IMG/VR virus record: IMGVR_UViG_3300034122_000903
Location: 1-26,873 of that record
From: a virus
Length of the DNA stretch: 26,873 nucleotides
Direction: 5' to 3' (one strand)
Part shown: one piece after another, positions 770 through 24,092 of the stretch
Numbering within the stretch: the first letter of the stretch is position 1
Layout: each line of letters starts with the position of its first letter
Notes under the pieces: generated by a model
Told to the model about the DNA's origin: nothing
What the model saw: only the letters and a program-made list of their open reading frames with translations
Database searches by the model: none
Position numbers and translations under genes: made by a program

Positions 770-776
770 AGCGTCC

Positions 777-1106: not shown

Positions 1107-1114
1107 TGTCTACC

Positions 1115-2914: not shown

Positions 2915-2915
2915 G

Positions 2916-3146
2916 TCACGTCCTCTTGCCTGATGGTTTGACCGGCCACGACTTACGCGCTGGGCCCGTCTTCTTGCTCGCCATGGCGCGCTTCTCTGTT
3001 GCGCTCATCTTTGCAGCAGCGGCGGCGGGACGACAAGCTGGATAGGCACGCGAGGACTTCTCAGACCCGGAGCGTCCGCACTCCTTGCCGGTCTTGACGT
3101 CAACCCACTTCTCACCAAACCATTTGCCGAGCCCCCCCTTGCTCAT
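2916..3146 (-). CDS. DUF5872-like small basic protein
   Basis: The 76-aa product begins MSKGGLGKWFGEKWVDVKTG and continues with KECGRSGSEKSSRAYPACRP, the characteristic GLGKWF.EKWVD plus CGRS....YP.CRP signature that I recall as DUF5872, a family seen in tailed phages and in some giant eukaryotic viruses. The C-terminal third is Lys/Arg/Ala-rich. A longer frame starting at 3212 exists, but the ATG at 3146 makes an ATGA overlap with the stop of the 55-aa gene and starts exactly at the conserved motif, so I use it. The two Cys residues flanking a basic loop could bind metal, which is inference. The function of the family is not established. Confidence 0.85.
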   Translation of the reverse strand: MSKGGLGKWFGEKWVDVKTGKECGRSGSEKSSRAYPACRPAAAAAKMSATEKRAMASKKTGPARKSWPVKPSGKRT

Positions 3147-3310
3147 TTCTTCACCCGATTGTCCGGGCCGCTCCACCCACCGCCGCGCTTCTTGTACTCC
3201 TTGGCAGCCCACGCGTTGGCGTAGGCAGAGGGGTACACATCGAACTTGGCCTTAGCTGCAGCTTTGACCTTGGACCAGAGTGCGGGGTTGGTGGGTTTGG
3301 GGCTCGCCAT
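3143..3310 (-). CDS. YPSAYANAW-motif small basic protein (55 aa)
   Basis: ATG at 3310 opens a 55-codon frame ending TGA at 3143-3145, giving TAATG overlap upstream and ATGA overlap downstream. The peptide contains LWSKVKAAAKAKFDVYPSAY followed by ANAWAAKEYKKRGGGW. The K..YPSAYANAW..K.YK.RGG pattern recurs in small proteins of environmental phages and large DNA viruses (recalled family-level resemblance). It is strongly basic and has no membrane segment. Together with its neighbours it forms a run of four tiny basic late proteins. A nucleic-acid or virion-interior role is inferred from charge and position. Confidence 0.85.
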   Translation of the reverse strand: MASPKPTNPALWSKVKAAAKAKFDVYPSAYANAWAAKEYKKRGGGWSGPDNRVKK

Positions 3311-3591
3311 TACCACTTCACCTTATGCGACCAGTACCGAGCCGACAGTTTGTCTGGACTGGCATCCTGTGCGTTGTGTCGGGCGTAGTACGATTTTTTC
3401 CGAGCTTTATCTTTCTCGCTCGTCGGGTTCTTCCCAGCGCCCGTGACGCCCTGCTGCCCAAACCGGATCGTCTTGATCTGGTCGCCGCTTTTAGCCACAA
3501 CGACGTGGCTCTTGGTGGGATGGCTGGGCGTGCGTTTCGGCTGATTGAATCCGCTCACACCAGCGCGCTCAAGACGAGGGTCTTTGGCCAT
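3310..3591 (-). CDS. DUF6321-like small basic protein
   Basis: The 93-aa protein reads MAKDPRLERAGVSGFNQPKR, then TPSHPTKSHVVVAKSGD, IKTIRFGQQGVTGAGKNP, a Lys/Arg-rich middle and a C-terminal LSARYWSHKVKW. These blocks match what I remember of DUF6321 (SHVVVAK.GD.IK.IRFGQQGV.GAGKN). The protein is Lys-rich and lacks Cys and membrane segments. It starts with TAATG overlap on the 368-aa fibre gene and ends with TAATG overlap on the next small gene, so it is translated as part of the late operon. The molecular role of this family is unknown to me; presence in virions or DNA binding is inferred. Confidence 0.85.
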   Translation of the reverse strand: MAKDPRLERAGVSGFNQPKRTPSHPTKSHVVVAKSGDQIKTIRFGQQGVTGAGKNPTSEKDKARKKSYYARHNAQDASPDKLSARYWSHKVKW

Positions 3592-4697
3592 TACGCAATC
3601 CTTTCGGCTACAATGATGGCAGAGGGGATAGCCGGTACAGCAGGCGGACCTGCGGCAGCAGCGGTGTGGTCAAGAGTTACAGCGACGTTTTCTGGAAGCC
3701 AGAGAACCTGTACGTACTGTCCTGCGGTCACGGTGACGTAGAAGATGATCTGGAAGAAAGTGTTACCGCCATCGGCAGCCTTGGGCACCGTCACCTTAGT
3801 CGCCGACCGATCTATGTTGGTGCCGTTCAGGGCCAGCCACACAGTGGTGTCGTGGTCATTGCTGTCAGAGTTTGACAACTGCAAGTTCGGAGCGACCATG
3901 TAGGTACCAGCCGCGGCGAAGGTCAAGCGCGTTAGATTGGTCCCGTCAGTGACCATGGTAATGCCGGCGCCAGACACTTCGGTCGTGCCGAACTTAACCG
4001 GCGTAGCTGCGGTCGTGCTGCCCGTCTGGTCTGTGATGTCAGAGAACGCAGCAAATGCACGGCCGGTAATCGTGGCATACGGCACCTTGCCACTCAAGAC
4101 GTCGATGTTTGTGACGTTGACCTCGCCCGTGCCCTTAGGTGTAATGTCGATGTCGATGTTGGTGTTAGTGCCGTCTGCCAACAAGGTATTGTTGGTCAGC
4201 GTCAGCCCGGCCGCAGCTGCAGATGTGAAGAACGAATCCGACGTGATCGCAGTGATCCCGCTGAAGCTACCGGTGAACACGACGCCGGAAACCGTGCCGC
4301 CCGTTATGGAGACGCTGTTCGAGTTCTGAGTGGCAATGGTGCCCAACCCGAGGTTGGTCCGTGCACCCGAGGCGTCTGAGGCGCCGGTGCCGCCATCGGC
4401 GATGGCGAGGTCGGTGATCCCTGCGATGGTGCCGCCGGTAATGGCTGCCTTAGCGATGGCGACAGAGCCGGTCCCGTTGGGGGCCAGCGTGAGGTTACCG
4501 TTCGTGTCGAGCGTGCGGATGGTGTTGCCGTCGAACTGAACGTTGTCCACCGAGGCAGAGCCGGTCCCGACCTTGAGCGCCGTGCCCACACCAGTCCCGC
4601 TGTAGACCGTTTTCTCCGCAGCCTCAGGACCGCCGTCCACGTGCAGGACTTGGTCGAAGGTGTCCTTGATCTTTTGCGTCGTCAGGTTGGTGGCCAT
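3591..4697 (-). CDS. Tail fibre protein with C-terminal C1q/TNF-like beta-jelly-roll
   Basis: The 368-aa product has no membrane or signal segment and is built of Gly/Thr/Ala-rich beta repeats. A typical fibre linker IADGGTGASDASGARTNLG lies near residues 98-117, with T(I/V)SG and ITGGTIAG repeats on both sides. From about residue 240 to 350 there is a compact all-beta domain (RLTFAAAGTYMVAPNLQLSN, WLALNGTNI, then FYVTVTAGQYVQVLW) resembling the C1q/TNF-like jelly-roll that ends many phage fibres. I infer a trimeric fibre with a receptor-binding C-terminal knob. It lies between the 603-aa tailspike and the small basic protein cluster, so this phage appears to carry at least two tailspikes plus this fibre. 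Confidence 0.8.
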   Translation of the reverse strand: MATNLTTQKIKDTFDQVLHVDGGPEAAEKTVYSGTGVGTALKVGTGSASVDNVQFDGNTIRTLDTNGNLTLAPNGTGSVAIAKAAITGGTIAGITDLAIADGGTGASDASGARTNLGLGTIATQNSNSVSITGGTVSGVVFTGSFSGITAITSDSFFTSAAAAGLTLTNNTLLADGTNTNIDIDITPKGTGEVNVTNIDVLSGKVPYATITGRAFAAFSDITDQTGSTTAATPVKFGTTEVSGAGITMVTDGTNLTRLTFAAAGTYMVAPNLQLSNSDSNDHDTTVWLALNGTNIDRSATKVTVPKAADGGNTFFQIIFYVTVTAGQYVQVLWLPENVAVTLDHTAAAAGPPAVPAIPSAIIVAERIA

Positions 4698-4709
4698 GGT
4701 GGTTGTTCC

Positions 4710-4832
4710 TTACAGTAGGATCGCGGGCAGTACGACTGTAGCACCTAAGGCTGTTGCGATGAAGTCCCTGTGCGTTGGTGGGTATTCTGTGTCGTTAGGG
4801 CCATTACCCGACAAACCTATTCCTGTAAGCAT
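4710..4832 (-). CDS. Possible 40-aa peptide overlapping the tailspike 3' end
   Basis: An ATG at 4832 opens 40 codons in a different frame from the tailspike, overlapping its last 29 bases and filling most of the 106-base gap before the fibre gene. The peptide contains YPPTHRDFIATALG followed by a hydrophobic ATVVLPAILL tail. The gap is otherwise unexplained in an operon with almost no spacers, which favours a gene. There is no clear ribosome-binding site, and I recognise no homologue. It could be a chance frame left by tailspike exchange. Confidence 0.3.
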   Translation of the reverse strand: MLTGIGLSGNGPNDTEYPPTHRDFIATALGATVVLPAILL

Positions 4833-6615
4833 CGTACCGAAGCGTAATGGACTTGATATTGTTGTCGAGAGCATAGTTCCCGCCCTGCAAGACGATATTC
4901 CCAGCCGCAGATCGCACGGTGATGGGGTCTGTCGCTCCAGCCTGCGCGTGGATGGTAACTTCAAACCCAATTGGGAACCGCTGAGACCCGTCAGCGGCAA
5001 TAACCGTGTCAAGGTTTGCACCGGCGCCAGTGCCGGATGAAAGCGCCCACACCCCAACGCCCACTAGCGTTGCCGTAGCCCCAGACATCGTCACGGCATT
5101 GTTTTGCAGGATCGGCGCGGTTGAATAGCCAGAGAATTGATTGGTGCTTCTGATCTCAAAGTTTTTGATGCGCGTTGATGCGTTTCCAGCCCTAATGTTG
5201 TATGGAAGCGTGCCGCCGTTTTGAACAAACGTGCAAGCATCAATGAGCATCCCATCCACATCAGCGACGAGAATATGCTCGTTTGCGGAGTAAATTGACC
5301 CAAACCTGCACCCCTGCACGACGTGGGCAGCGGCGCGATTTGTTGCAACATTCAACAGCGGGCGCGCGTTTTCAAAACCACACCCGATAAGGACGACTTG
5401 TTTGCCTTCGCTGTAAAGGCCGGCACCATCAAGGCCAGCAGCAACCCTAGTCTGGTTTGCGTTAAAGATGGTCTCAATAAACGTGATACGGCTCGGGCTT
5501 TGCGTTGATGCCTGAGTTGTCAGGGCTGCGTTGTTTCTGGTTCCTGATCCAGTTCCACCATTCTGGGTGATAGATGAGGCGATGCACGACGCCTCAAGAA
5601 CAGTTCCCGACAAAGACAGGCCCTCATCCACGCAGAAAGAAATCAGAACGTCATCAAGGTGAAGGCGCTGGACAAACGGGCCAGCCGTTGAAGTCCCGAC
5701 AGCCCGTAAGCCATACCGACCGCAATCTACAATATCAAACTGCCGCAGAGTGATCGTGTCCACAAAGGTAGCGCCAGACGGTGAGAGAGAGATGCCGTCC
5801 TGCGCTGCCATAGCTAGGTCACCAACAATTTTCGCATTCTCAAATGTGATGCGGACTGTGGAGCTGTCAGTCGGAACCCTAAATACCGCAGCGTTGGTAG
5901 CAGGCGAAAAGATGGTGTTTCTGCGGCTTGCACCCTTAATCCAAACGTCCGAACGAATGATGACGTTGAAACGGTAAACGCCGACCGGGAATGTCAGAGG
6001 ACCAAGCCGCTCGGTGCTTTGGCTGATGAAGTCGATTACCTTTTGAACCACAGTGGTCTGGTCAAGCACGTTGCTTGGAACAATGCCCCAAGCGGCTGCA
6101 TTGAAGCCACCATCTGCTCCTGTTTTCGCATAGAGCTTCACACCGCCAGCCGTTGTGACGTGCTGGTCGGTGGCCCCGGATGCTGCAACCTCGTAGGCAA
6201 ACCCTTCCTCACGCGTCTGTACGACGTCGCCCGTAGCGGCCACGAGTGTCGTGTCGGCGAGCAGTGCAGCCACGTCTTTGAACCAGTGCAGCCGCGAGGC
6301 ATCAGACCCCTGCAGCGTGTTGGTCGCACTGTCGATCGTCTTGTTGGTCAGAACTCCCGAGCCTGCCAGTGTGGCGAAGTCGCCATCGGTAAGCGCGGTG
6401 TTGAACTGGGCGGTCGTGCCCGTGATGGTGTTGGACCCGAGAGCCATGGTCTTATTCGATAAGACCTGCACATCAGCCTGCATACCCTCAGCCAGCTGCG
6501 AGCGCGAGATGCGCTTGGTCTCGCTGGCCGTTGCGTCGAAGATCACGAGATCGTCGTTATTGGCGCTGTTTGCGCCAGAGAGAGCCGTGAGGTCTGTGAT
6601 CCGCTTGCCGGGCAT
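4804..6615 (-). CDS. Tailspike with right-handed beta-helix (603 aa)
   Basis: Residues 1-110 form an N-terminal virion-binding part starting MPGKRITDLTALSGA, with the common fibre phrases LVIFDAT, SETKRISRSQLAEGM, VLSNKTM and LTNKTIDSATNTLQG. From about residue 185 (FISQSTERLGPLTFPVGVYR) to 500 the protein shows repeated short beta rungs such as VWIKGASRRNTIF, IDACTFVQNGG and VVLIGCGFEN, typical of a parallel beta-helix. The C-terminal 100 residues form a separate beta domain (IVLQGGNYALDN, SITLRYD). I infer a host-glycan-binding or -degrading spike. It lies directly after a UUCG hairpin and two virion-type proteins. The beta-helix section (about 5080-6050) looks more A+T-rich than the flanks, suggesting module exchange. 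The enzyme class cannot be read from the sequence. Confidence 0.85.
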   Translation of the reverse strand: MPGKRITDLTALSGANSANNDDLVIFDATASETKRISRSQLAEGMQADVQVLSNKTMALGSNTITGTTAQFNTALTDGDFATLAGSGVLTNKTIDSATNTLQGSDASRLHWFKDVAALLADTTLVAATGDVVQTREEGFAYEVAASGATDQHVTTAGGVKLYAKTGADGGFNAAAWGIVPSNVLDQTTVVQKVIDFISQSTERLGPLTFPVGVYRFNVIIRSDVWIKGASRRNTIFSPATNAAVFRVPTDSSTVRITFENAKIVGDLAMAAQDGISLSPSGATFVDTITLRQFDIVDCGRYGLRAVGTSTAGPFVQRLHLDDVLISFCVDEGLSLSGTVLEASCIASSITQNGGTGSGTRNNAALTTQASTQSPSRITFIETIFNANQTRVAAGLDGAGLYSEGKQVVLIGCGFENARPLLNVATNRAAAHVVQGCRFGSIYSANEHILVADVDGMLIDACTFVQNGGTLPYNIRAGNASTRIKNFEIRSTNQFSGYSTAPILQNNAVTMSGATATLVGVGVWALSSGTGAGANLDTVIAADGSQRFPIGFEVTIHAQAGATDPITVRSAAGNIVLQGGNYALDNNIKSITLRYDAYRNRFVG

Positions 6616-14279: not shown

Positions 14280-14358
14280 GGGGGGATGGTAACTCTTGGA
14301 GGCGGGGGCGGTCAATAGTGTAAAGATTTGGTTTTTTGGGCTGGGAAATTTTTTATAA

Positions 14359-14388
14359 ATTGTACTTAGGGGGGTGTGTAATTGTAAA
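14359..14388 (-). promoter_or_regulatory. Sigma70-type promoter for the minus-strand morphogenesis operon
   Basis: On the minus strand TTTACA (14388-14383; 5 of 6 to TTGACA) is followed after 18 bases by TACAAT (14364-14359; 5 of 6 to TATAAT). It points to the terS gene, with a start near 14352 and a leader of about 70 bases. The -35 hexamer is the same TTTACA word that is repeated many times in the 15.5-15.9 kb block. Confidence 0.5.
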
Positions 14389-14537
14389 GATTGGTAATTT
14401 TGGGTCTTGTTGTGAGAGGTTTACTACAATAGCGGGGGGCTAGAAAAGTCCAGTCCAACCCCCCACCCCCCTTGCCTGCCTGCTATCGCGCGGCGCGCGT
14501 GCTATAGGGCAGAAAAAGCGCCTATGCGACGCCTAAT

Positions 14538-14566
14538 TTGACCTAAGCGGCGTGCTATGCCATAAA
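14538..14566 (+). promoter_or_regulatory. Weak sigma70-like promoter candidate for the plus-strand genes
   Basis: TTGACC (14538-14543) and CATAAA (14561-14566) are separated by 17 bases. The -35 match is good and the -10 match only moderate. Transcription would begin near 14573, giving a leader of about 130 bases before the 121-aa gene. Confidence 0.35.
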
Positions 14567-14705
14567 GGAGTTGTAGCAAGTGAATGAGTAAACGGTGACG
14601 GCCAGACGGCCACGCTCTTTGACATCGTTAACCTGACCCTAGGCACGTAGTGCCGATGATGGGTGGCACAAGTCTCAACCCTTATGCCATATGAAAGGAA
14701 ACACT

Positions 14706-15071
14706 ATGGCCGACTATATCAAGATGGCGCCCGTGACCCTCACGTTCCAAGTCACGCTCGACGGCGTGACGGCGGGCGGCGGTGTCCGCGCAGTGCAAGA
14801 CAGCGCCGTTGTGATCCGCGCAAGCGGACCGAATGCCGAGTTTTTCGGCGTCGACGTTAACAAGTTTGGCGGGCTTTATGCCTTCGACAGCCGCAAGGCC
14901 AAAGGCAAAAAAGTCAAGGCCGAGGCAGCGGCTCCGGCTCCGGTCGCCAAGGCTCCGGTCGCAGCCAAAGGCAAGGCCAAGGCTCAGCCTGCAGCGCCTG
15001 CAACGGTTGCAGGCTTTACCCCCGAGCAACTCGCAAAACTGCAGGCGCTCAAAGATGCAGGCATCATCTAA
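14706..15071 (+). CDS. Small protein with Ala/Lys/Pro-rich tail (121 aa)
   Basis: ATG at 14706 follows AAAGGA by 6 bases; a longer frame from 14691 would contain that ribosome-binding site, so it is rejected. Residues 1-65 form a globular part (YIKMAPVTLTFQVTLDGVTA, VVIRASGPNAEFFGVDVN, FGGLYAFDS). Residues 66-100 are an Ala/Lys/Pro linker of histone-H1 style (KGKKVKAEAAAPAPVAKAPV). The last 20 residues are an amphipathic helix, FTPEQLAKLQALKDAGII. Clean G+C-rich codon use and a strong hairpin directly after the stop suggest high expression. A nucleic-acid-binding role is inferred from the basic linker; I do not recognise the family. Confidence 0.75.
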   Translation: MADYIKMAPVTLTFQVTLDGVTAGGGVRAVQDSAVVIRASGPNAEFFGVDVNKFGGLYAFDSRKAKGKKVKAEAAAPAPVAKAPVAAKGKAKAQPAAPATVAGFTPEQLAKLQALKDAGII

Positions 15072-15077
15072 AAACAG

Positions 15078-15099
15078 GGTGGGCGCGAAAGCGCCCACC
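15078..15099 (+). terminator. GNRA-capped hairpin after the 121-aa gene
   Basis: GGTGGGCGC (15078-15086) pairs with GCGCCCACC (15091-15099) around GAAA. It is followed by TTCCCTCTTTC, a pyrimidine-rich stretch with interrupted T's. It begins 6 bases after the stop, so it is a probable attenuator or 3'-end stabiliser before the 63-aa gene. Confidence 0.7.
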
Positions 15100-15125
15100 T
15101 TCCCTCTTTCACAAGGAAACCTAAG

Positions 15126-15317
15126 ATGAAGCACGAAACCAAAGCCGCGCTGCGCGATCGCCAGCTCAAGATCGACACGCACATTTCCAAGCGCGGACAA
15201 GACAACGCGCAGCGTTACCTCGCCGCCCGCCACCACAAGGTGGACTGGCAGATGATAGGCCAAGCGCTGATGGGCGTGATCGCCACCCTGCTGTTCCTCT
15301 TCTTCGCCCTGACCTAA
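15126..15317 (+). CDS. Small C-terminally anchored membrane protein (63 aa)
   Basis: The N-terminal 40 residues are hydrophilic and basic (MKHETKAALRDRQLKIDTHI, KRGQDNAQRYLAARHHKVDW). The C-terminus is one hydrophobic helix, MIGQALMGVIATLLFLFFAL, so it should sit in the inner membrane with its basic head in the cytoplasm. AAGGAAA lies 9 bases before the ATG. It is the last gene before a strong terminator. A holin is possible but the tail-anchored layout is not typical; a membrane-associated early protein is equally likely. Confidence 0.75.
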   Translation: MKHETKAALRDRQLKIDTHISKRGQDNAQRYLAARHHKVDWQMIGQALMGVIATLLFLFFALT

Positions 15318-15328
15318 CTTAACACTGA

Positions 15329-15359
15329 CCCGCCCGGCTAACCACCGGGCGGGTTTTTT
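15329..15359 (+). terminator. Rho-independent terminator
   Basis: CCCGCCCGG (15329-15337) and CCGGGCGGG (15345-15353) form a perfect 9-bp stem with a 7-base loop, followed by TTTTTT. This is a textbook intrinsic terminator closing the 14.7-15.3 kb plus-strand unit and insulating the repeat-rich region downstream. Confidence 0.93.
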
Positions 15360-16041
15360 GTTGTCCGCACGGCAGGCAGTTGCGTGTTAAGTTTGCTCGT
15401 TTCACTCGCCATACGTCGGGGGCCTGTAGCTCTCTACACTACGTAGCCCTTACATCATGCCTAGTATAGTGCCAAACAGTCGGGGGGCTGTAACCTATTG
15501 ATATTAAACAACTATCTATTTTTCCTTTACACTACCCTTACAAAAAGTGTGTAAGATTTGTATGGTTTACATCTTTACACCACAGTGGAAAAGCCAATGA
15601 AACCAAGGAGTTAGCGGATGTAAACCAGTGTGTAGTAGTAGTAAAGTATCTATACTATCTATAATATATACGTTTTTTTCAATAATCCCCCCCGGGAAAC
15701 GCGTTTCAATTCGGTTGAGTGTAAACCTTTACATTACAACCGCTCAAGTTGCGCTATTTTAGGGGGCTATCTTCCAAAAATTCGTAGATTTTCTAGATAG
15801 TGCCCAAACAAATTCAGTAATATCAAGGACTTGCACTATCTATTTTCCGTTTTCGTGTAAAGATACTTTACCTACCTAAACCTCAATTCGTAGATACTTT
15901 ACACTCTATTTCCCCCCTTCCCCCCAAAATTTGACAGCGCCGGGCAAAATTGGGCATATTGCTGGGGCTGGCCGAGGTCCACCCAAAACACCTCTGGTCC
16001 GGCAGTCTTAACAATCTTAACACACAATGGAGACCGCCATC
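15360..16041. repeat. A+T-rich, iteron-like non-coding region
   Basis: No credible gene is found across this stretch of about 680 bases. The words TTTACA or TGTAAA occur at 15526-15531, 15566-15571, 15574-15579, 15619-15624, 15720-15725, 15728-15733, 15856-15861 and 15898-15903, on both strands. Inverted pairs include TGTAAA-CC-TTTACA (15720-15733) and GTAAAG-ATA-CTTTAC (15857-15871). AGATACTTTAC is repeated at 15861-15871 and 15892-15902, 31 bases apart. ACTATCTAT occurs at 15511-15519, about 15654-15662 and 15835-15843, with a related inverted copy near 15795. Runs of G5-G6 or C6 punctuate the block. It lies just upstream of the plus-strand operon. It may be a replication origin, a multi-operator region or a set of TTTACA promoters. 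Confidence 0.65.
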
Positions 16042-16314
16042 ATGGCTAACTGGACCAAACTCGCCGACCTCGCCGCTCAAGTTTACACTAAGACCCTTAC
16101 AGTCCGCCCTGTCCGCCGCCCTTACATCAGTCAGGCTGATGCTGTCTATGACTACACCGTAGGTCATGAGATGGTGGTGGTTGACCAGTCGTCCCCCCTT
16201 AACAACTGCCGGATCACTGTCTGTGATCGTCATGAACTGAAGCGCCACTACGGCGTCACTCACCTTAACATCCAATTCAACCCCGGCTTCGCTCCGGTAG
16301 AGGTGGCACTATGA
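16042..16314 (+). CDS. Hypothetical protein opening the plus-strand operon (90 aa)
   Basis: I use ATG at 16042 (MANWTKLADLAAQVYTKTLT) because GGAG lies 9 bases upstream; the ATG at 16027 would place that site inside the gene. The protein continues RPYISQADAVYDYTVGHEMV, VVDQSSPLNNCRITVCDRHE and LNIQFNPG. It looks like a small alpha/beta protein. No motif or family is recognised. The stop overlaps the next start as ATGA. As first gene after the repeat block it should be among the first transcribed. Confidence 0.75.
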   Translation: MANWTKLADLAAQVYTKTLTVRPVRRPYISQADAVYDYTVGHEMVVVDQSSPLNNCRITVCDRHELKRHYGVTHLNIQFNPGFAPVEVAL

Positions 16315-16508
16315 GCATTGCAAATACCCTCGACCCCAAGACGATCCGTGTCACCATGTCTGTCATTGGCTACCTCGGCACCAATGAGTTCTACCGTAAG
16401 GTGGACAAGGTCATCCAGTCTGACCCGACCATCCCCTATGAGGATGCCCTCTTGGCCGTCGTCACCAAGACCCACAACCACATCAATGTCATCAAGGAGG
16501 CTATCTAA
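16311..16508 (+). CDS. Hypothetical protein (65 aa)
   Basis: A 65-aa soluble helical protein containing RVTMSVIGYLGTNEFYRKVD and YEDALLAVVTKTHNHINVIK. It has ATGA overlap with the upstream gene and shares one base with the start of the next (TAATG), so all three are translationally coupled. No family is recognised. The same codon preference as its neighbours suggests a shared history. Confidence 0.75.
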   Translation: MSIANTLDPKTIRVTMSVIGYLGTNEFYRKVDKVIQSDPTIPYEDALLAVVTKTHNHINVIKEAI

Positions 16509-17272
16509 TGTTCGGCTCTAACTTCATCCTGCCCCGTGGTGGCATCCTGTCCTATGAGCAGGCTCTCAATAAGCACAACTCGATCGTCCCCATTAGGGGG
16601 CGGTCTACCGAAACGAGACCGCTTGGTCAGCGCAAGAACGATAACTTCACCATCCGTATCTTAGCCAACACTGGCTCTATTGCCATCCGGCTCTACTCCA
16701 CTGACATCATCACCTACCACACCGATGGCACCATTGACCTAGAGCCTTACTCATCCAAGCTGACTGACGATGCCGTCCGTGGTGTCTTCCGTGGTTCTAT
16801 CGTCCCTCAGTATACCAACCCTGTCGGTCCTGTCATATGGGTCCAGCACAAGGGGTATCGCATCCCTGACTTCGCCACACTGGACAAGGACCTTAACCTA
16901 ATCGGTGGGTCCAAGCCCTTCACTCACTTCCAAGTGGACAAGACCAAGGGTGCCGCTGCTCTCAAGCAGTCAGGCTACAAGCAGTTCGCCTTGTGGCTTA
17001 ACACACAGCTCAGACTGGGCATCGACCCTAGAGAGGGCAGCTATTGGGGCAGCTTCTACCCTTCCACTGAGATGATCCGGTCACTCGACCAGCCTGAATA
17101 CTACCACGACATCGCTCGGGGTATGCCTCGCACCAACGTCGATGACCAACTGACTAACCTACGGCGTGCTGTCCATAAGTATTACGACACCGTCACCGAG
17201 ACTGAGGTGCCGTTCCTCGACGATTGGCGGCAGCTTAACAGCATCCGTGCTAGTCAGCGTCAGTGGGCCTAG
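16508..17272 (+). CDS. Conserved phage protein with PIRGR/RPLG N-terminal domain (254 aa)
   Basis: The N-terminal 110 residues contain LSYEQALNKHNSIVPIRGRS, then RPLGQRKNDNFTIRIL, IAIRLYSTDIITYHTDGTID and further beta strands. This resembles an uncharacterised phage domain in which RPLG precedes a strand, a Y.T pair and a H.DGT turn. The 266-aa gene at 22684 has a matching order (KPLG, FTVYYLSTM, PNNTLRMVSDGGY), so the two look like distant paralogues. The C-terminal half is helical. The stop codon TAG runs directly into a hammerhead ribozyme whose stem II includes its last base, so cleavage would leave this gene at the 3' end of an RNA with a 2',3'-cyclic phosphate. Function unknown. Confidence 0.78.
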   Translation: MFGSNFILPRGGILSYEQALNKHNSIVPIRGRSTETRPLGQRKNDNFTIRILANTGSIAIRLYSTDIITYHTDGTIDLEPYSSKLTDDAVRGVFRGSIVPQYTNPVGPVIWVQHKGYRIPDFATLDKDLNLIGGSKPFTHFQVDKTKGAAALKQSGYKQFALWLNTQLRLGIDPREGSYWGSFYPSTEMIRSLDQPEYYHDIARGMPRTNVDDQLTNLRRAVHKYYDTVTETEVPFLDDWRQLNSIRASQRQWA

Positions 17273-17332
17273 TCGAAACACCCTTCGGGGTGTCTGAGTA
17301 AGGTGGCTCCTTGCTCACTGATGAGACAAGCC
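17269..17332 (+). ncRNA. Hammerhead ribozyme 1, type II topology
   Basis: All conserved core elements are present in order. GTC (17272-17274) is the 3' strand of stem II, then GAAA (17275-17278). Stem III is ACACCC (17278-17283) with GGGTGT (17288-17293), capped by TTCG. C17 at 17294 follows U16.1 at 17293. Stem I is TGAGTAAGG (17295-17303) with CCTTGCTCA (17309-17317), loop TGGCT, then CTGATGA (17318-17324) and GAC (17325-17327), which pairs with GTC to close stem II. Stems I and III are closed by loops and stem II is open, which defines type II. Predicted cleavage is between 17294 and 17295. Stem II overlaps the stop codon of the upstream gene and is short (3 bp, possibly extended by GGC/GCC across an internal loop). 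Confidence 0.93.
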
Positions 17333-17347
17333 ATTATGGAGAACACA

Positions 17348-17767
17348 ATGCCAATGACCACCAACGACATCCGCATCCTTGCTCTGCTGCTCGACATCGA
17401 GCCTAAGTTTCTGTCCGCTCCAGACGCTGGGCTGCTTGTTATGGTCTACGAGGAGTTGGGACACCGCGCCCAGCTTGGTGAGGGTCGCTTCAAGTCGTTC
17501 TACGACAGCCTGCCAAACGACATCGCCATTAAGTTTATGGTCGATCGCCGGACCCTTGAGTGGATGCTGGAGAACAAGTGCCACTTCATTACCGACACTA
17601 ACAAGCCGACACTGGCAGAGCGCCTCGAACGGGGGGCTAGGACTGACATCTGGGCCGACACTAGCCACGACGACAGCGACGATGGCATCTACGATGCAGT
17701 CGAGGATGCCCAGTTTGCTATGGTGGAAGCTGCTGAGCTGCTACGTAAACATGGTCTGGATAAGTAA
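17348..17767 (+). CDS. Acidic hypothetical protein enclosed by two hammerhead ribozymes (139 aa)
   Basis: ATG at 17348 is preceded by GGAG with 6 bases between; the longer frame from 17303 runs through the ribozyme and is rejected. The protein reads MPMTTNDIRILALLLDIEPK, GLLVMVYEELGHRAQLGEGR, FKSFYDSLPNDIAIKFMVDR, then a hydrophilic Asp-rich segment (WADTSHDDSDDGIYDAVEDA) and a final helix with VEAAELLRKHGLDK. It is strongly acidic and soluble; no family is recognised. Its mRNA would be cut at 17294/17295 and 17792/17793, giving a 498-nt RNA that carries only this gene. The leader TTATGGAGAACACAATG is repeated exactly in front of the AAA+ gene. It may be a partner or regulator of the downstream ATPase (inference from position). 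Confidence 0.8.
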   Translation: MPMTTNDIRILALLLDIEPKFLSAPDAGLLVMVYEELGHRAQLGEGRFKSFYDSLPNDIAIKFMVDRRTLEWMLENKCHFITDTNKPTLAERLERGARTDIWADTSHDDSDDGIYDAVEDAQFAMVEAAELLRKHGLDK

Positions 17768-17830
17768 GTCGAAACAGGGGGTAACCTCTGTCTGTAGCAG
17801 GTGGCTCCTGCTGCACTGATGAGACAAGCC
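17765..17830 (+). ncRNA. Hammerhead ribozyme 2, type II topology
   Basis: This is a second full hammerhead with the same plan. GTC (17768-17770) is followed by GAAA (17771-17774). Stem III is ACAGGGG (17774-17780) with CCTCTGT (17785-17791) and a GTAA tetraloop, including one G-U pair. C17 is at 17792. Stem I is TGTAGCAGG (17793-17801) with CCTGCTGCA (17807-17815), loop TGGCT, then CTGATGA (17816-17822) and GAC (17823-17825). Cleavage is predicted between 17792 and 17793. Stem I pairs 3 to 6 differ from ribozyme 1 but remain paired, and stem III has a different sequence and loop, so pairing is maintained by covariation while the core and stem-I loop are identical. It begins at the stop codon TAA of the 139-aa gene. 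Confidence 0.93.
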
Positions 17831-17840
17831 AAGCAACCAA

Positions 17841-17867
17841 GGCTCTGCCGTCGCAGACGGTCAAGCC
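17841..17867 (+). promoter_or_regulatory. Leader hairpin before the AAA+ ATPase gene
   Basis: GGCT (17841-17844) pairs with AGCC (17864-17867) and CCGTC (17848-17852) with GACGG (17856-17860), leaving a symmetric CTG/TCA internal loop and a GCA loop. The hairpin lies between ribozyme 2 and the GGAG ribosome-binding site. It is absent from the otherwise similar leader of the 139-aa gene. It could protect the 5'-hydroxyl RNA end made by cleavage. Confidence 0.55.
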
Positions 17868-17882
17868 CTTATGGAGAACACA

Positions 17883-18875
17883 ATGCGTCCATCCCTTCTG
17901 TCTGACACACTTAAAGACCTCATCTCGATCAACCGCACCGTGGCTATCGAGGGGGCACCGGGTGGTGGCAAGACCACTCTCGTCCAGTCTGTGACTGAGG
18001 CTCTCGGTCTGCACTACGTCGAGCGTCACCTGCCGACCATGCTGGTCGAGGACTTCGGCATCCCTGTCATTGGGGGCGAGACCCTACGTTACATGATCCC
18101 CGACTGGTTCCCTGCCAAGGGCTCTCGTTATGACGATGGCCGTGGTGGGGTGCTCTGCTTCGATGATCGGAACCAAGCTCCGGCCGACATCCAGAAAGTG
18201 CTGGCTAACATCTGCCAAGCACGCAACCTCCACGGCACACCCCTTGCCAAGGGCTGGACTGTCATCTCGACGGGTAACCGTCAGTCTGACCGGGCTGGGG
18301 CCAACAGGGTGCTGTCCCACCTTCGCAATCGTGAGACGGTCCTAGAGTTCGACACCAACCTCGACGACTGGTCGTCGTGGGCCCTGACTAATGGGATCAA
18401 GCCTGAGGTGGTGGCGTTCATCCGCTTCCGTCCCGGTCTGCTCCATGACTTCGATGCCAACAAGGACCAGAACCCAACGCCTCGTTCATGGGCTGAGGGT
18501 GTCAGTGCTGTGCTGGGGGCTGTCCCCGCTGAGGCTGAGTATGACTGCTTCAAGGGCGCCGTTGGTGAGGGGGCCGCGGCTGAGTTCGTGGGGTTCCTCA
18601 AGATTTACCGCAAGCTGCCTAACCCCGATGCTATCCTGCTCAACCCTGACAGTGCTGACGTGCCGTCTGACCCGGCCACTCTCTACGCCCTGTCTGGTGC
18701 TATCTCCAGCCGCATCTCTCAGGCCAACATCGACCGGGCTGTCACTTACCTGTCCCGCTGCCCGGCTGAGTTCTCAGTGCTGGCTATGTCGATGGCTGTC
18801 CGCCGTGACCCTATGGTGACCTCCACCAAGGGCTTCATTGACTGGTCCATCAAGCACCAGTCGGTGCTGTTCTAA
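17883..18875 (+). CDS. MoxR/CobS-type AAA+ ATPase
   Basis: From ATG 17883 (330 aa), Walker A is GAPGGGKTT at residues 24-32. The Walker B region is GGVLCFDDRNQAP near 88-100 and sensor 1 is STGN at 129-132. The conserved arginine stretch ANRVLSHLRNR follows, with TPRSWAEGVSAV further on as a probable sensor-2 area. MoxR-type AAA+ proteins remodel partners and typically pair with VWA proteins; here a DUF3150-like and a peptidase/VWA gene follow within 1.3 kb. The second acidic residue in Walker B is Asp where Glu is usual, which may slow hydrolysis. The start chosen has GGAG 6 bases upstream in a leader identical to that of the 139-aa gene; the ATG at 17871 contains that site. Ribozyme 2 would give this mRNA a new 5' end about 90 bases upstream. 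Confidence 0.88.
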   Translation: MRPSLLSDTLKDLISINRTVAIEGAPGGGKTTLVQSVTEALGLHYVERHLPTMLVEDFGIPVIGGETLRYMIPDWFPAKGSRYDDGRGGVLCFDDRNQAPADIQKVLANICQARNLHGTPLAKGWTVISTGNRQSDRAGANRVLSHLRNRETVLEFDTNLDDWSSWALTNGIKPEVVAFIRFRPGLLHDFDANKDQNPTPRSWAEGVSAVLGAVPAEAEYDCFKGAVGEGAAAEFVGFLKIYRKLPNPDAILLNPDSADVPSDPATLYALSGAISSRISQANIDRAVTYLSRCPAEFSVLAMSMAVRRDPMVTSTKGFIDWSIKHQSVLF

Positions 18876-18890
18876 GTATGCAACACACAA

Positions 18891-18911
18891 GGGGTGGCAC
18901 TGCGCCACCCC
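18891..18911 (+). terminator. Intergenic hairpin after the AAA+ gene
   Basis: GGGGTGGC (18891-18898) pairs with GCCACCCC (18904-18911) around ACTGC. No T-run follows; AAGGAG of the next gene comes 9 bases later. It is probably an RNA stability or partial termination element. Confidence 0.6.
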
Positions 18912-18930
18912 ACAACACAAGGAGTAATAC

Positions 18931-19221
18931 ATGCCTGCGTTTAGTATCATGGTGTCCTACGACATCAGTGCTTACCGGAACGTCACGGTTGAAGCTGACA
19001 ACCTCGCCGCTGCCGTAGAGTGGGTCAGAGATGATCCTGATGTATGGGACTTCTTCGCCGCAGACTACGAGACGGCACACAACTATCGTATCATCGAAGT
19101 CCTTGACGAGAACGACATCATACTGGTCGAGGACATCCAGATCAGTGAACCGGACGGACAAACAACCCTTCCCGCCGAGGTGGTCCTCGCCAACCTCACC
19201 GCTTCTATCATCTCCAACTAA
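18931..19221 (+). CDS. Hypothetical protein (96 aa)
   Basis: The 96-aa acidic protein begins MPAFSIMVSYDISAYRNVTV, followed by EADNLAAAVEWVRDDPDVWD, YRIIEVLDENDIILVEDIQI and a Leu/Ala-rich end. The AYRNV.VEA.....A...V..DP pattern resembles small phage proteins of alpha-beta fold, but no function is known to me. AAGGAG precedes the ATG. It lies between the AAA+ ATPase and the DUF3150-like gene and may belong to that complex. Confidence 0.72.
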   Translation: MPAFSIMVSYDISAYRNVTVEADNLAAAVEWVRDDPDVWDFFAADYETAHNYRIIEVLDENDIILVEDIQISEPDGQTTLPAEVVLANLTASIISN

Positions 19222-19232
19222 GGACACATATC

Positions 19233-20099
19233 ATGACCAACCATCTCTCCGATCGTGCGCTGCTGGTGCAGCTTAACATCTCACAGTGGACAGCACGCAA
19301 GCTGGACAAGAAGGCCACCCGTGAGGTGGCTGATGCCAACTATGCCAGCCGTGACGCTGGTAACTACCACAAGAAGCTGCTGCCCATGAGTGACAGCTTG
19401 GCTAACATCCACACCATGACGGGTAGCATCCGTCAGGAGTTCTTGACCAACACCCTGCCGTGGGGGCTGAACAACACCCATATGCTGCCGACCTCCAACT
19501 ACCTTGGCTTCATGACTACCTTCCGCAAGCGCAAGTCTGAGTGGGAGCAGGTGGTGAGTAAGTTCCTCTATGACTACCCATCCCTCCAGACCACCGCCCA
19601 GCGGTTCCTCGGTAACCTCTACAACTCCGAGGACTACCCAGATGTCCGTGACCTACAGCATAAGTTCAGCATGGACCTCGTGGTCCTGCCTGTCCCGACC
19701 TCTGACTTCCGTGTCCAGCTTGCTGACGATGAGCTGTCCAACATCCACGCTGACATCAAGCGCCGGGTGGAGGAAAGTTCTGGGATGGCTATGAAGGAGG
19801 CTTGGCAGCGCCTTTACGACCGTGTTAAGCATATGGTCGAGCGGCTCTCCAAGCTGGACGATCCCAAGTCTCGCTTCCATGAGAGCACGTTGGAGCATGT
19901 GACTGAACTGTGCCGTATCCTGCCCCGTCTGAACTTCACTGACGACCCACATCTGGAGGCGATGCGACACGAGGTGGAGGGTAAGCTGGCTGGTCTGAGC
20001 AAGGACGCCGTGGTCAACGACCCTGTGTTCCGGCAGACTAAGATCGATGAAGCGTCTGACATCATGGCCCGTATGGGTGCTTTCATGGGTGCAGCATAA
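19233..20099 (+). CDS. DUF3150-like helical protein
   Basis: The 288-aa product is almost entirely helical. It opens with SDRALLVQLNISQWTARKLD, then VADANYASRDAGNYHKKLLP, IRQEFLTNTLPWG, and a long charged C-terminal half (IHADIKRRVEESSGMAMKEA, LYDRVKHMVERLSKLDDPKS, LTELCRILP-like VTELCRILPRLN). The L.ISQWTARK.DK start and its position between a MoxR/CobS ATPase and a VWA protein fit DUF3150, which I recall as travelling with such pairs on phages and plasmids. The role may be a scaffold or substrate adaptor for the AAA+/VWA machine; this is inference. The DUF assignment is from memory. Confidence 0.7.
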   Translation: MTNHLSDRALLVQLNISQWTARKLDKKATREVADANYASRDAGNYHKKLLPMSDSLANIHTMTGSIRQEFLTNTLPWGLNNTHMLPTSNYLGFMTTFRKRKSEWEQVVSKFLYDYPSLQTTAQRFLGNLYNSEDYPDVRDLQHKFSMDLVVLPVPTSDFRVQLADDELSNIHADIKRRVEESSGMAMKEAWQRLYDRVKHMVERLSKLDDPKSRFHESTLEHVTELCRILPRLNFTDDPHLEAMRHEVEGKLAGLSKDAVVNDPVFRQTKIDEASDIMARMGAFMGAA

Positions 20100-20130
20100 C
20101 GCTGCACCACACAAACAAGGAGTAATCAAC

Positions 20131-21264
20131 ATGCAGTCTCTCGACACACTCAAGACCCGCCTTGCCAAGGCCAAGACCTCGCTCATCCTAGAGCATCCCT
20201 TTGTCGGTGCTATCGCACTGGGTATGCCACATACCTACTCTGATGCGGTGCCTACCGCTGCCACCAATGGCAAGCGTGTGCTCTACAACCCTGCGTTCGT
20301 CTCCGATCTGACGGACGACCAGCTTAAGTTCCTCGTGGCACATGAGTGTATGCACCCCATGCTGGAGCACAACTTCCGCCGTCAGTCCCGCGACCCTAAG
20401 AAGTGGAACAAGGCCGCTGACTACGTCATCAACCAACTGCTGGTGGACGAGGGTATCGGTGCGTTCATCGACGGTGGCTGCCTCAACAAGGCGCTCTATG
20501 ACGCCGGGCAGGGTGTGTCCGAGCAGATTTACACCCTGATACCTGACGGTGACGAGGGCGGTGGCAACGGTGGTGGTGACATCGGTGGCACTGGCCAAGA
20601 CCTTGAGGACGGTGAGGGCACGGCACAGGACCAAGCCCAAGAGGCTGCCGAGTGGAAGGTCAAGGTGGCACAGGCTGCACAGGCTGCCAAGATGATGGGT
20701 AAACTGTCGGCTGGCATGGCCCGGCTTGTGGACAGCATACTCAATCCAACGGTTGACTGGCGTGATGTGCTCCAGAAGTTCGTCACCAAGCACAAGACCG
20801 ACGAGCGCAGCTTCTCCCGGCCCAACCGTAGGTTCCTGTCTCAGGGTCTCTACATGCCAAGCCGTAGCGGTGAGGTGATGGGTCCGATCGCTTTCCTTGT
20901 GGACTGCTCCGGCTCTGTCGATGACGTGCAGCTTGCTCAGATGGCAGCAGAAATCCGTATGGTCCACGAGGACCTGCGTCCTGAGAAGCTGCATGTGGTA
21001 TACTTCGACAGCGAGGTGTCCCATTACGAGTGCTACGGCCCGGATGACAGCCTTGACATCCGCTTCCACGGTGGTGGCGGCACTGACGTGCGTGCTGCCT
21101 TTGACTACCTCGACCAGCATGGTCATGCCGACGGTGTCGTCTGCACCGTGGTGCTCACTGACGGCTACACCCCCTACCCAGATGGTGCCAGCAACCCTGT
21201 CATCTGGGCCATGACGACCGACATGACGGCTCCCTTCGGTGAGCACTGCCGGGTCCGCATGTGA
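20131..21264 (+). CDS. Zn-peptidase-like / VWA-domain protein (DUF2201 type)
   Basis: From ATG 20131 (377 aa; AAGGAG upstream), residues 61-80 read TDDQLKFLVAHECMHPMLEH, with an HECMH zinc-binding motif (71-75) of the HExxH type. After a Gly/Asp-rich linker (about 140-170) comes a von Willebrand A domain with the complete MIDAS set: DCSGS at 258-262, Thr in GGGGTD near 318 and Asp in LTDGY near 344. This metallopeptidase-N plus VWA-like combination is the DUF2201 family. VWA proteins of this sort are partners of MoxR ATPases, which is exactly the arrangement here. I infer a metal-dependent remodelling complex acting on a host or phage protein. The frame upstream to 20047 is rejected because it overlaps the previous gene. 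Confidence 0.85.
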   Translation: MQSLDTLKTRLAKAKTSLILEHPFVGAIALGMPHTYSDAVPTAATNGKRVLYNPAFVSDLTDDQLKFLVAHECMHPMLEHNFRRQSRDPKKWNKAADYVINQLLVDEGIGAFIDGGCLNKALYDAGQGVSEQIYTLIPDGDEGGGNGGGDIGGTGQDLEDGEGTAQDQAQEAAEWKVKVAQAAQAAKMMGKLSAGMARLVDSILNPTVDWRDVLQKFVTKHKTDERSFSRPNRRFLSQGLYMPSRSGEVMGPIAFLVDCSGSVDDVQLAQMAAEIRMVHEDLRPEKLHVVYFDSEVSHYECYGPDDSLDIRFHGGGGTDVRAAFDYLDQHGHADGVVCTVVLTDGYTPYPDGASNPVIWAMTTDMTAPFGEHCRVRM

Positions 21265-21569
21265 TGGCTGGCAAGGCAAGCAAGACGACGACGGGGTGGC
21301 GGCGACGCTACCTCGTCCAAGTATGGAGCCGGAGCAGAACATTCGAGGTTGTGCTGGTGAGGGGGAGTGCTAAGCGGGTGCGCCGTAATGTCCACCGCGT
21401 GAGTGTGCTTACCAATGCGGGCACGTGGGAGTGGTATGATATGGACGACTACACCCACAGCATCAGCCGTAAGTTCTTCGAGGCCAGTGATCGTGGTGAG
21501 ATGCTGGCGTATGCTACCCGCCTACGGATGGACGGCTTCCGTTTGCTGGGGGAGATGCCTACATGGTAG
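21264..21569 (+). CDS. Hypothetical basic protein (101 aa)
   Basis: ATG at 21264 overlaps the VWA stop (TGATG). The N-terminal half is very basic (KTTTGWRRRYLVQVWSRSRT, VRGSAKRVRRNVHRVSVLT) and the C-terminal half carries WEWYDMDDYTHSISRKFFEA. It appears to be an alpha-beta protein without known motif. It may bind nucleic acid (inference from charge). Confidence 0.7.
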   Translation: MAGKASKTTTGWRRRYLVQVWSRSRTFEVVLVRGSAKRVRRNVHRVSVLTNAGTWEWYDMDDYTHSISRKFFEASDRGEMLAYATRLRMDGFRLLGEMPTW

Positions 21570-21892
21570 ACTTCCCAGAAAGCTACGGCTTCGCCCCTAG
21601 TATGGGGCGACAGCTTATGCAGTCTAGGTTCACCGTCGAGGTGGGTGTGTTCAGACCGCGGGAAGTTACCGGCTACTATGTCAGTTCCTACGGTGGGCGG
21701 GACCGAGGTAAGTCGCGGCTGCCGTTCATCTTCGATGCCATTGGCTTCGTTGCCAAGGATGAGCACACCCCGATCCGAGGTGTGCTATACTACGGGACAG
21801 GTGAGCAGCCGGTCCCCCATATCACAGGCACATTGCAACAGGTGGTGACTGCATTGTGCACGCTCCACCGTATGAAAGGACACATGAAGTGA
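21563..21892 (+). CDS. Hypothetical protein (109 aa)
   Basis: A 109-aa protein with FTVEVGVFRPREVTGYYVSS, YGGRDRGKSRLPFIFDAIGF and a C-terminal helix LQQVVTALCTLHRMKGHMK. It overlaps the previous gene by 7 bases and its stop overlaps the next start (GTGA). No family is recognised; it is likely soluble. Confidence 0.7.
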   Translation: MVDFPESYGFAPSMGRQLMQSRFTVEVGVFRPREVTGYYVSSYGGRDRGKSRLPFIFDAIGFVAKDEHTPIRGVLYYGTGEQPVPHITGTLQQVVTALCTLHRMKGHMK

Positions 21893-22149
21893 TACCAACA
21901 GAACTTTTTGTATCGTGGGTGGCGCTGGTCATCGCCGCCGCATGGATCATCCACCAGTGGCAGGAACTCAGGGAGCGTGACGACATCCTTGAGGAGGTGA
22001 AGGCTGCACTGGAGGCGGCTGACAAGTCACTCGACCTATATCAAACCATCCTGCGGGATGTAGCTATTGGACATGCAACTCTGGAGGTAACCAACGATGG
22101 TCGCATCATCGCAACGCACTGCTCTGCTGGAAAAGTATCGCTACATTAA
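21889..22149 (+). CDS. Membrane-anchored coiled-coil protein (86 aa)
   Basis: I start at GTG 21889 because it overlaps the preceding stop and has AAAGG 9 bases upstream; the ATG at 21856 would lie deep in that gene. Residues 3-22 (PTELFVSWVALVIAAAWIIH) form a membrane helix. They are followed by a charged coiled coil (QELRERDDILEEVKAALEAA, DKSLDLYQTILRD) and a short beta end TLEVTNDGRIIATH. The layout is like an inner-membrane-tethered cytoplasmic or periplasmic rod. An i-spanin is conceivable, but no lipoprotein partner is seen. Confidence 0.65.
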   Translation: MIPTELFVSWVALVIAAAWIIHQWQELRERDDILEEVKAALEAADKSLDLYQTILRDVAIGHATLEVTNDGRIIATHCSAGKVSLH

Positions 22150-22687
22150 CGTCGAACACAACAATTGGTGGGACTGTGTTGAGTCTGACTTCATCGAGGA
22201 CATGAAGCAGGTCGGCATCCATGTGGACAAGATATACTTCTCCGGCTTCTGGTCACAGGGTGACGGCGCCTGCTTCTCAGGCAAGATGAGTAACACCCTG
22301 ACCTACCTCGACCGCCACCATCTGGGCCAGTATCCCATGCTTCGCAAGCTCTTGGAGCATGACGGTGAGGTCTACGTTAGCTGCAAGCAGAGTGGGCGCT
22401 ACTACCACGAGAACTCCACTGAGTTCTGGGCGGACAGCGACACCCTTACCGGCATGGTGGACCAGCCGACTGACTTCCATGAAGCCGTCGTGGAGGAGTG
22501 GCAGCGCCTGCTTGGCGTAGAGCTGGACGACTTCGAGAAGGATGTCACTGAACAGTGGCGCACCTACATGCAGCAACTCTACCGCAAGCTAGAGGAAGAA
22601 TACGACTACCTCACCAGCGACGATGGTGTGTGGGATACGCTGGTAGCAAACGAACTTGTCGAAGATTTAGAGGAGGAAGAAGTATGA
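22097..22687 (+). CDS. Conserved phage protein, NVEHNNWWD/GFWSQGDGA family (196 aa)
   Basis: GGAGG lies 9 bases before ATG 22097, so the 53-base overlap with the previous gene is real. The protein has YRYINVEHNNWWDCVESDF, VDKIYFSGFWSQGDGACFSG, a YVSCKQSGRYYHENS segment and a very acidic helical C-terminus ending EDLEEEEV. The W.D...DF..DM...GI.VD...FSGFWSQGDGA pattern recurs in many phage genomes as an uncharacterised protein, sometimes labelled an antitoxin-like protein, a label I would not trust. Function unknown. Confidence 0.78.
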   Translation: MVASSQRTALLEKYRYINVEHNNWWDCVESDFIEDMKQVGIHVDKIYFSGFWSQGDGACFSGKMSNTLTYLDRHHLGQYPMLRKLLEHDGEVYVSCKQSGRYYHENSTEFWADSDTLTGMVDQPTDFHEAVVEEWQRLLGVELDDFEKDVTEQWRTYMQQLYRKLEEEYDYLTSDDGVWDTLVANELVEDLEEEEV

Positions 22688-23484
22688 CACAGATCAAGAG
22701 TTACAAACAGGCTGAGTATATCGCAGAGAAGGCACGCAACATCGCCAAGGGCAAGCCACTGGGGCCCACCCACTGGCGTATGTTCAAGGACGGTGACGAG
22801 TTCACGGTCTATTACCTGTCCACTATGGTGGCCCGCATCCTGCCCAACAACACGCTGCGTATGGTGTCTGACGGTGGTTACAATGTCCACCTGCCCAACG
22901 GTGCGATCTACTCCATCCACAAGGTGCTGCCCGTCAGCTTGGTCAACCGTAGCAAGGGGCACTACCGACTGCACATCGCACAGCACGGTGAGGACGTAGC
23001 CTCGATACCGCGGGATGAGTTTGGCGTTACTGACTGGGAGGCATGGCGCAAGGGTGGGGTCCGCTACTACGATGGCCTGACCATCGACCTCGCAACACGC
23101 ACGGCTGTGTCCTATGCTGAGCCCACGATGGAGGTTGACGCTGCTGCTCGCAAGCTGTGGTTAAAGCAACTCAAGACACTCAAGCGCCACCTCAAGACCA
23201 TCGCCAAGCTGGGCGGGTTCACCGCCCGTCTGGAAATCCCTGACGACGGCAAGCGTCGGTGGGAACTTACACGGTTCTCGCACTCCGCTAGGGACATGAA
23301 CCTCGCCATTGCTGCCCTGCGTGGCGACATCACAGAGGAGTTCTTGGAACGTGTGACCCACGACCTAGCACTGCAACAATACTATCTGCCTGATATTGCG
23401 GAGCAACTGCGCCTCATCGACAGGTTCTTCATCACTCACAGCACCGCCCTGCGTCTCGCGCTCGGCGTCATCACACCCAAGTAA
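22684..23484 (+). CDS. Conserved phage protein with KPLG N-terminal domain (266 aa)
   Basis: ATG 22684 overlaps the upstream stop (ATGA) and has GAGGAGG upstream; the longer frame from 22555 is rejected. The N-terminal 110 residues (GKPLGPTHWRMFKDGDEFTV, YYLSTMVARILPNNTLRMVS, DGGYNVHLPNGAIYSI) follow the same order of elements as the 254-aa gene at 16508. The rest is helical and basic (LWLKQLKTLKRHLKTIAKLG). I infer an internal phage paralogue pair with a shared small beta domain. No enzyme motif is visible. Confidence 0.78.
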   Translation: MTQIKSYKQAEYIAEKARNIAKGKPLGPTHWRMFKDGDEFTVYYLSTMVARILPNNTLRMVSDGGYNVHLPNGAIYSIHKVLPVSLVNRSKGHYRLHIAQHGEDVASIPRDEFGVTDWEAWRKGGVRYYDGLTIDLATRTAVSYAEPTMEVDAAARKLWLKQLKTLKRHLKTIAKLGGFTARLEIPDDGKRRWELTRFSHSARDMNLAIAALRGDITEEFLERVTHDLALQQYYLPDIAEQLRLIDRFFITHSTALRLALGVITPK

Positions 23485-23495
23485 GGACAGACACA

Positions 23496-24092
23496 ATGGA
23501 ACACGCATACCCTCACCTCGTCCCGGTCGAAGCCTCGTTGGTTATTGCCAACGTGCTGCCCTCCGGCTCTGCCTTCGGTGTCCGCATGGACAACGGAGAG
23601 AACTGCTACATCCCGGTCAACGTCGCCACGGCAACGCAGATCACAGTGGGCATGGAGATCACTGCCAAGCTGGTGCCCAACCGCTTCCCTGACAAGGCAG
23701 AACGGACACCGTGGCTCACTGTGTTCCTGTCCCGCAACCCCTCACCGATCAAGACATCTGTGCCTGTGCAGTATGCCATGCCCTTCGAGCAGTTCGACAT
23801 CGAGCCCTCGGTTCCGGCGGAGCCGTCGATGGCAGACAAGGTGCGGGGCACCATGCGTAAGGGTGGGGTGTGGACAGTGTCGTCTCTCTACTCAGAGCTT
23901 GTGCCCGGTAAGGTCAGGACTGACGGCCTGACGGAATACAACGCCATCTCGGCCGCTATCCGGGCGATGTATGCTAGGGGTGAGTGTGCCAAGTTCCAAC
24001 TGTGGCGGAACTCTGACCAGAGCAAGCCAAGCCGGGAGTGGTTCACCTGCCACCCCGACAAGGCGGACGTTGATGAGTGGGAGGAGCAGTGA
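23496..24092 (+). CDS. OB-fold-like plus winged-helix-like protein (198 aa)
   Basis: Residues 8-80 look like a small beta-barrel of S1/cold-shock style (LVIANVLPSGSAFGVRMDNG, CYIPVNVATATQITVGMEIT, AKLVPNRFPD, WLTVFLS). After a linker rich in Pro/Ser/Glu, residues 112-185 resemble a winged helix (KGGVWTVSSLYSELVPGKVR, YNAISAAIRAMYARGECAKF). I infer a nucleic-acid-binding protein, perhaps RNA-binding or a transcription factor. Both domain calls come from the pattern of strands and helices and need structure prediction. Confidence 0.72.
   Translation: MEHAYPHLVPVEASLVIANVLPSGSAFGVRMDNGENCYIPVNVATATQITVGMEITAKLVPNRFPDKAERTPWLTVFLSRNPSPIKTSVPVQYAMPFEQFDIEPSVPAEPSMADKVRGTMRKGGVWTVSSLYSELVPGKVRTDGLTEYNAISAAIRAMYARGECAKFQLWRNSDQSKPSREWFTCHPDKADVDEWEEQ

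Follow-up and report, generated by a model that had tools for sequence, protein, structure and literature searches.

Type II hammerhead ribozymes at gene junctions of an uncultured phage: probable cistron separators ahead of a MoxR-type AAA+ operon

Two hammerhead-like motifs lie one on each side of a single small gene in an uncultured phage, raising the question of whether they release that gene as a separate, perhaps circular, RNA or serve some other role at the junctions where they stand. The window, i.e. the whole stretch of 26,873 bases of an IMG/VR virus record that was analysed, encodes phage head, portal and terminase proteins on the minus strand, while its plus strand bears an AAA+ operon; phage genes for structure and packaging surround the ribozyme pair. 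When the window DNA was compared with named phages, no similarity was found.

Two type II hammerheads around a 139-aa gene

Full-length matches to the Rfam family Hammerhead_II (RF02276) were detected on the plus strand at 17271-17335 (ribozyme 1; 35.2 bits, E 8.7e-4) and at 17767-17833 (ribozyme 2; 36.6 bits, E 3.7e-4), and both were also recognised with a structural descriptor and by folding. When only the window's own record was searched with RF02276, the E-values were 2e-7 and 9e-8, respectively. The gathering score of this family, a curation threshold, is 37, missed by ribozymes 1 and 2 by 1.8 and 0.4 bits, and a default Rfam scan of the window was empty because both score under it; relatives of these ribozymes at the same (syntenic) junction score 39.2-41.2 bits, above the gathering score. 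The core pattern CGAAA...TC...CTGATGA matched twice in the window, a number reached by none of 100 shuffled sequences. Both copies read CGAAAC...GUC/U...CUGAUGA (the slash marks the predicted cut), which is the type II order of the core elements CUGAUGA, GAAA and NUH cut site, and no core in the type I/III order (CTGANGA-CGAAA) was found in the window. Other weak Rfam matches (anti-hemB, ceN40 and ar14 among them) were dropped, as they were far under their cut-offs.

Folding of both copies produced a three-helix hammerhead in which helices I and III are closed by loops and helix II is open. In ribozyme 1, the 5' strand of helix II (GUC, 17272..17274) pairs with GAC at 17325-17327 and is followed by GAAA (17275-17278) and by the helix III hairpin CACCC-UUCG-GGGUG plus U and C (17279..17294), with the cut predicted after C17294. 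Then come the helix I hairpin (17295..17317, with loop UGGCU at 17304-17308) and the 3' part (17318..17333), consisting of CUGAUGA (17318-17324), the GAC strand of helix II and AGCCA (17329-17333), the pseudoknot partner of loop I. In ribozyme 2, the GUC strand, GAAA and the helix III hairpin (17775-17790) lie within 17768..17792 and the cut is predicted after C17792, whereupon the stretch 17793..17831 holds the helix I hairpin (17793-17815, loop UGGCU at 17802-17806), CUGAUGA (17816-17822), GAC (17823-17825) and AGCCA (17827-17831). The pseudoknot between loop I (UGGCU) and the 3' tail (AGCCA) is present in both ribozymes, and the hairpins that would form the 5' ends after cutting have predicted energies of -12.3 and -14.5 kcal/mol. 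The window copies share with Hammerhead_II the full-length match, the core, the three helices and this pseudoknot. The sequence analysis thus confirmed both motifs as genuine type II hammerheads, for which cleavage is predicted, and the cuts after 17294 and 17792 proposed in an initial annotation coincide with the predicted sites.

The genes at these junctions are all on the plus strand. Upstream, a 254-aa gene without assigned family (16508..17272) ends in TAG at 17270-17272, so that its stop codon overlaps helix II of ribozyme 1. The gene between the ribozymes (17348..17767, 139 aa, Shine-Dalgarno GGAG at 17338-17341) ends in TAA at 17765-17767, adjoining ribozyme 2, and, in agreement with the initial annotation, it is the only one assigned fully inside the 498-nt interval between the cuts; its protein had no family and no match in named phages, PHROGs or Pfam. 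Downstream of ribozyme 2 lies the gene for a MoxR-type AAA+ ATPase of 330 aa (17883..18875; phrog_1297, E 1.7e-65; Pfam AAA_5). Between that ribozyme and the AAA+ Shine-Dalgarno, the centroid fold placed an extra hairpin at approximately 17846..17867 (CCGUC/GACGG enclosed by an outer stem GGCU/AGCC), which is weak, with a z-score of only -1.0 for the whole segment. The remainder of the operon (19233..21264) gave a weak DUF3150 match and a DUF2201/VWA-like protein. For 20047-21264, PHROGs assigns an HNH endonuclease (phrog_1314) and Pfam DUF2201 metallopeptidase plus VWA-like domains, and the HNH label looks wrong. A promoter scan of 14300-24000 returned a total close to chance and none near the ribozymes on the plus strand. 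A strong terminator-like hairpin, with 11 pairs followed by TTTTGTTG, is present on the plus strand at 15327-15355, upstream of the plus-strand operon.

The AAA+ junction in related phages

Relatives of the AAA+ protein were gathered twice, giving 80 loci, 77 of them with sufficient upstream sequence. A type II hammerhead was present upstream of the AAA+ gene in 31 of these 77 (29 by the descriptor, and L185 and L208 by eye), in most cases at a distance of 74-93 nt from the start codon, and type I and III descriptors found none upstream of the 80 relatives. The ribozyme is not essential to the AAA+ gene, since the other 46 of the 77 are without a recognised one there; in many of these the upstream gene extends into the AAA+ start. 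In L191-L198, which are without the ribozyme, a TTGACA promoter-like site was seen by eye immediately ahead of the AAA+ gene; such a site and the ribozyme may substitute for each other in starting the AAA+ mRNA. At the position before the AAA+ gene that a hammerhead occupies in many relatives, L167 has another element (5900-5990), made up of several hairpins and perhaps a pseudoknot; it had no Rfam match and one copy in the viral contigs, and is possibly a degenerate ribozyme or one of an unknown kind.

At the level of whole records, exactly one ribozyme match was found in each of five relatives of 51-60 kb and likewise in several shorter ones. Two of 12 records had no match at the whole-record threshold; in one of the two, that of L155, the descriptor does recognise a ribozyme. 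The 139-aa gene and the second ribozyme occur in three records only, namely the window, the 100% identical L147/L148, and L047, and relatives of the 139-aa protein were found only in L147 (identical) and L047 (81%). What is conserved is one ribozyme directly before the MoxR-type AAA+ gene. Since near-complete relatives have this single copy and the pair is found in three records, the simplest ancestral state is a lone ribozyme in front of the AAA+ gene, with the pair as a local elaboration.

The structure of the AAA+-linked ribozymes is maintained by covariation. In 20 distinct examples, all helix II pairs, the first five pairs of helix III and the first eight of helix I were kept, with many compensatory changes and several pair types per position; pairs were counted by position with a script, as MAFFT misaligned helix III. 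Since a match to the descriptor already presupposed two pairs in helix II and the three outermost ones in each of helices I and III, the independent evidence consists of the inner pairs and the pseudoknot only. In L169-L171, the latter is kept by a compensatory replacement of UGGCU/AGCCA with AACC/GGUU.

Position of type II hammerheads in phage genomes

The same descriptor gave at least 198 matches in at least 121 loci of viral contigs, the two copies of the window included; reversed sequence gave none. Because the scan was seeded with a GTC/GAC pattern and the figures apply to the matches listed, under simple ORF rules, the frequencies describe this sample only. Among the matches listed, 177 non-redundant phage ribozymes were considered and frames of at least 60 codons were counted: a distance of 0-8 nt separated the end of the upstream stop codon from C11.1 in 133 of 169 ribozymes, compared to a null of 3.7%, with a sharp peak where the stop overlaps or adjoins the GUC strand. 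The same stop placement was found at only 3.3% of hairpins elsewhere in the same contigs.

Helix III was closed by a UNCG or GNRA loop in 70 of the 101 ribozymes with four-base loops and stems of at least 5 bp among the matches listed, compared to 5.4% of 19,446 background hairpins. A pseudoknot of at least 4 bp was seen in 63% of the 177 non-redundant ribozymes among the matches listed, vs. 21% with shuffled tails. On the downstream side, a start codon with a Shine-Dalgarno followed at a median of 29 nt past the core, and by a crude count 64 of 81 inter-ribozyme intervals held one ORF, both again among the matches listed. The paired copies that the initial annotation had proposed to seek in related phages are therefore common as ribozyme-gene-ribozyme units elsewhere in phages, but this particular pair is limited to the three records above.

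Probable cistron separation and its alternatives

Each motif probably acts as a co-transcriptional cistron separator at its gene junction, giving each gene a hairpin-capped mRNA; with a stop codon directly before it and a Shine-Dalgarno directly after, this is the simplest reading. A long phage transcript would be read through the junction, and the ribozyme would fold once helix I and CUGAUGA had been transcribed and would cut between helix III and helix I. As the type II topology closes both of these helices, both cut ends would carry a hairpin: the upstream mRNA would be closed, a few bases beyond its stop, by a tetraloop-capped hairpin bearing a 2',3'-cyclic phosphate, and a 5'-OH hairpin, with the message's own Shine-Dalgarno behind it, would open the downstream mRNA. 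We infer cleavage and end groups from known hammerhead chemistry. At ribozyme 1, helix III would form the 3' end of the upstream mRNA and helix I the 5'-OH end of the 139-aa mRNA, and at ribozyme 2 helix III would form the 3' end of the 139-aa mRNA and helix I the 5' end of the AAA+ mRNA. No new promoter or terminator would be needed for each gene or gene block to obtain in this way its own mRNA, translated and degraded independently. The essential cut in this phage group would be that ahead of the AAA+ operon, and the 139-aa gene would be a later cassette with a second ribozyme copy, its mRNA being released as a linear monocistron. The earlier proposal that cutting would separate the AAA+ operon mRNA from upstream genes is supported.

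Because the stop codon overlaps or adjoins helix II, a terminating ribosome would cover the core, and cutting may await the end of upstream translation; this putative gating is read from the position of the stop. Any protection of the mRNA ends would presumably depend on the host, as RNase J1 of Bacillus subtilis degrades the 5'-OH product of the glmS ribozyme (PMC11780869) so that cutting would, in some hosts, make the downstream mRNA less stable instead of protecting it. Against the separator reading, the tetraloop caps may serve ribozyme folding only, and the abutment of the stop codon could reflect genome compactness and not coupling. The broader proposal that phage type II hammerheads are in general translation-gated cistron separators, with the stop placed in helix II and the topology selected for capping both ends, is rather unlikely; if true, it may cover most phage type II hammerheads and would answer the question of their purpose.

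Alternatively, the ribozyme with its 5' UTR could serve mainly as a short homology block for the gain and loss of accessory genes, the pair around the 139-aa gene being the footprint of one insertion. In L047, ribozyme and 5' UTR together form an exact direct repeat of 84 nt (5341-5424 and 5834-5917) on either side of the 139-aa gene, which shares only 81% identity with its window counterpart, and the repeated ribozyme is identical to the one found singly in L157-L160; this repeat suggests gene conversion or cassette insertion. In addition, L150 has a single ribozyme whose helix III is that of window ribozyme 1 and whose helix I nearly copies that of ribozyme 2, and L150 and L158 carry other genes at the same junction. 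The L047 repeat and these other genes suggest gene gain and loss through a repeated ribozyme-UTR element in this group. As the explanation of the ribozymes, homologous exchange is nonetheless unlikely, as it accounts for the pair but not for a functional ribozyme structure conserved by covariation, and exact repeats are rare, both hairpins being common to only 2 of 153 within-locus pairs among the matches listed. Quite improbable is a down-regulation of the downstream genes, in which the 5'-OH product would be degraded, perhaps under translation or ion control. The fate of the glmS product in Bacillus is a precedent, and Perreault et al. (2011; PMC3088659) proposed salt-responsive control for a hammerhead that a halovirus carries 13 nt ahead of a helicase gene, but each downstream gene retains a close Shine-Dalgarno and start codon, and each 5' end would carry one of the strong hairpins described above.

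The initial annotation went further and took the excised 498-nt piece as a possible circle, closed by reverse hammerhead ligation or by an RtcB-type host ligase. In this reading, the circle would be the functional product, as a stable template or, as in retrozymes, a mobile RNA. The ends left by hammerheads suit such ligation, and, since both ribozymes use GUC/GAC, the half-ribozymes at the ends of the piece would rebuild a full hammerhead. Yet no piece could be excised from the five near-complete relatives with one ribozyme, and the 139-aa gene with the second ribozyme is an accessory state of three records; excision or circularisation as the function found no support. Moreover, among neighbouring ribozymes with variant helix II, their own pairing was kept in 15 of 17 and the circle-closing pairing in 6 of 17, which argues against selected self-ligation, although not against a host ligase. 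RtcB was not found in ten phage records, and in comparable arrays spliced or circular products were sought and none detected (PMC3088659). A translated circle is not conserved either, as the spacing of 498 nt, divisible by three, is 493 in L047. A functional circle is thus unsupported and highly improbable.

The paired layout around a phage gene, taken as new in the initial annotation, had already been described by Perreault et al. (2011; PMC3088659, Fig. 3) as clustered hammerheads flanking individual genes in prophages; such arrays were seen to cleave in vitro, and one of them in E. coli as well. Like the window, those arrays belong to phages, place successive type II hammerheads around unrelated single genes and are predicted to yield single-gene RNAs. 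The present case differs in concerning a particular uncultured phage group, with one ribozyme tied to an AAA+ operon, and in giving figures for the abutment of stop codons, for tetraloop caps and for cassette turnover. The terms 'stop codon' and 'tetraloop' are absent from the main text of that paper. A 2017 review describes hammerheads flanking small non-conserved ORFs in phages and their role as an open question (PMC6155905). The analogy with retrozymes of plants and animals holds in that two hammerheads bound a unit of a few hundred bases, but fails in that retrozymes have type I or III hammerheads in retrotransposons and form RNA circles (PMC7761336), whereas the window has the type II core order, in a phage, around a protein gene. 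Within the open-licence literature searched, the ribozyme-gene-ribozyme layout is already known and the positional figures are new.

Hammerhead-class cuts between or ahead of genes are also used in engineered ribozyme operon separators and RiboJ-like insulators, which yield defined 5' ends; these are synthetic, and the window would be a natural phage case. If cistron separation is right, some phages tune operons through self-cutting RNA and not through promoters, terminators or RNase III sites, and the measured positional rules turn a vague idea of 'processing' into specific tests. A good model array is found in L071, where nine type II hammerheads lie in series (C11.1 at 775-4790 of the reverse strand) and TAG-GUC-GAAA follows nearly every gene of the operon.
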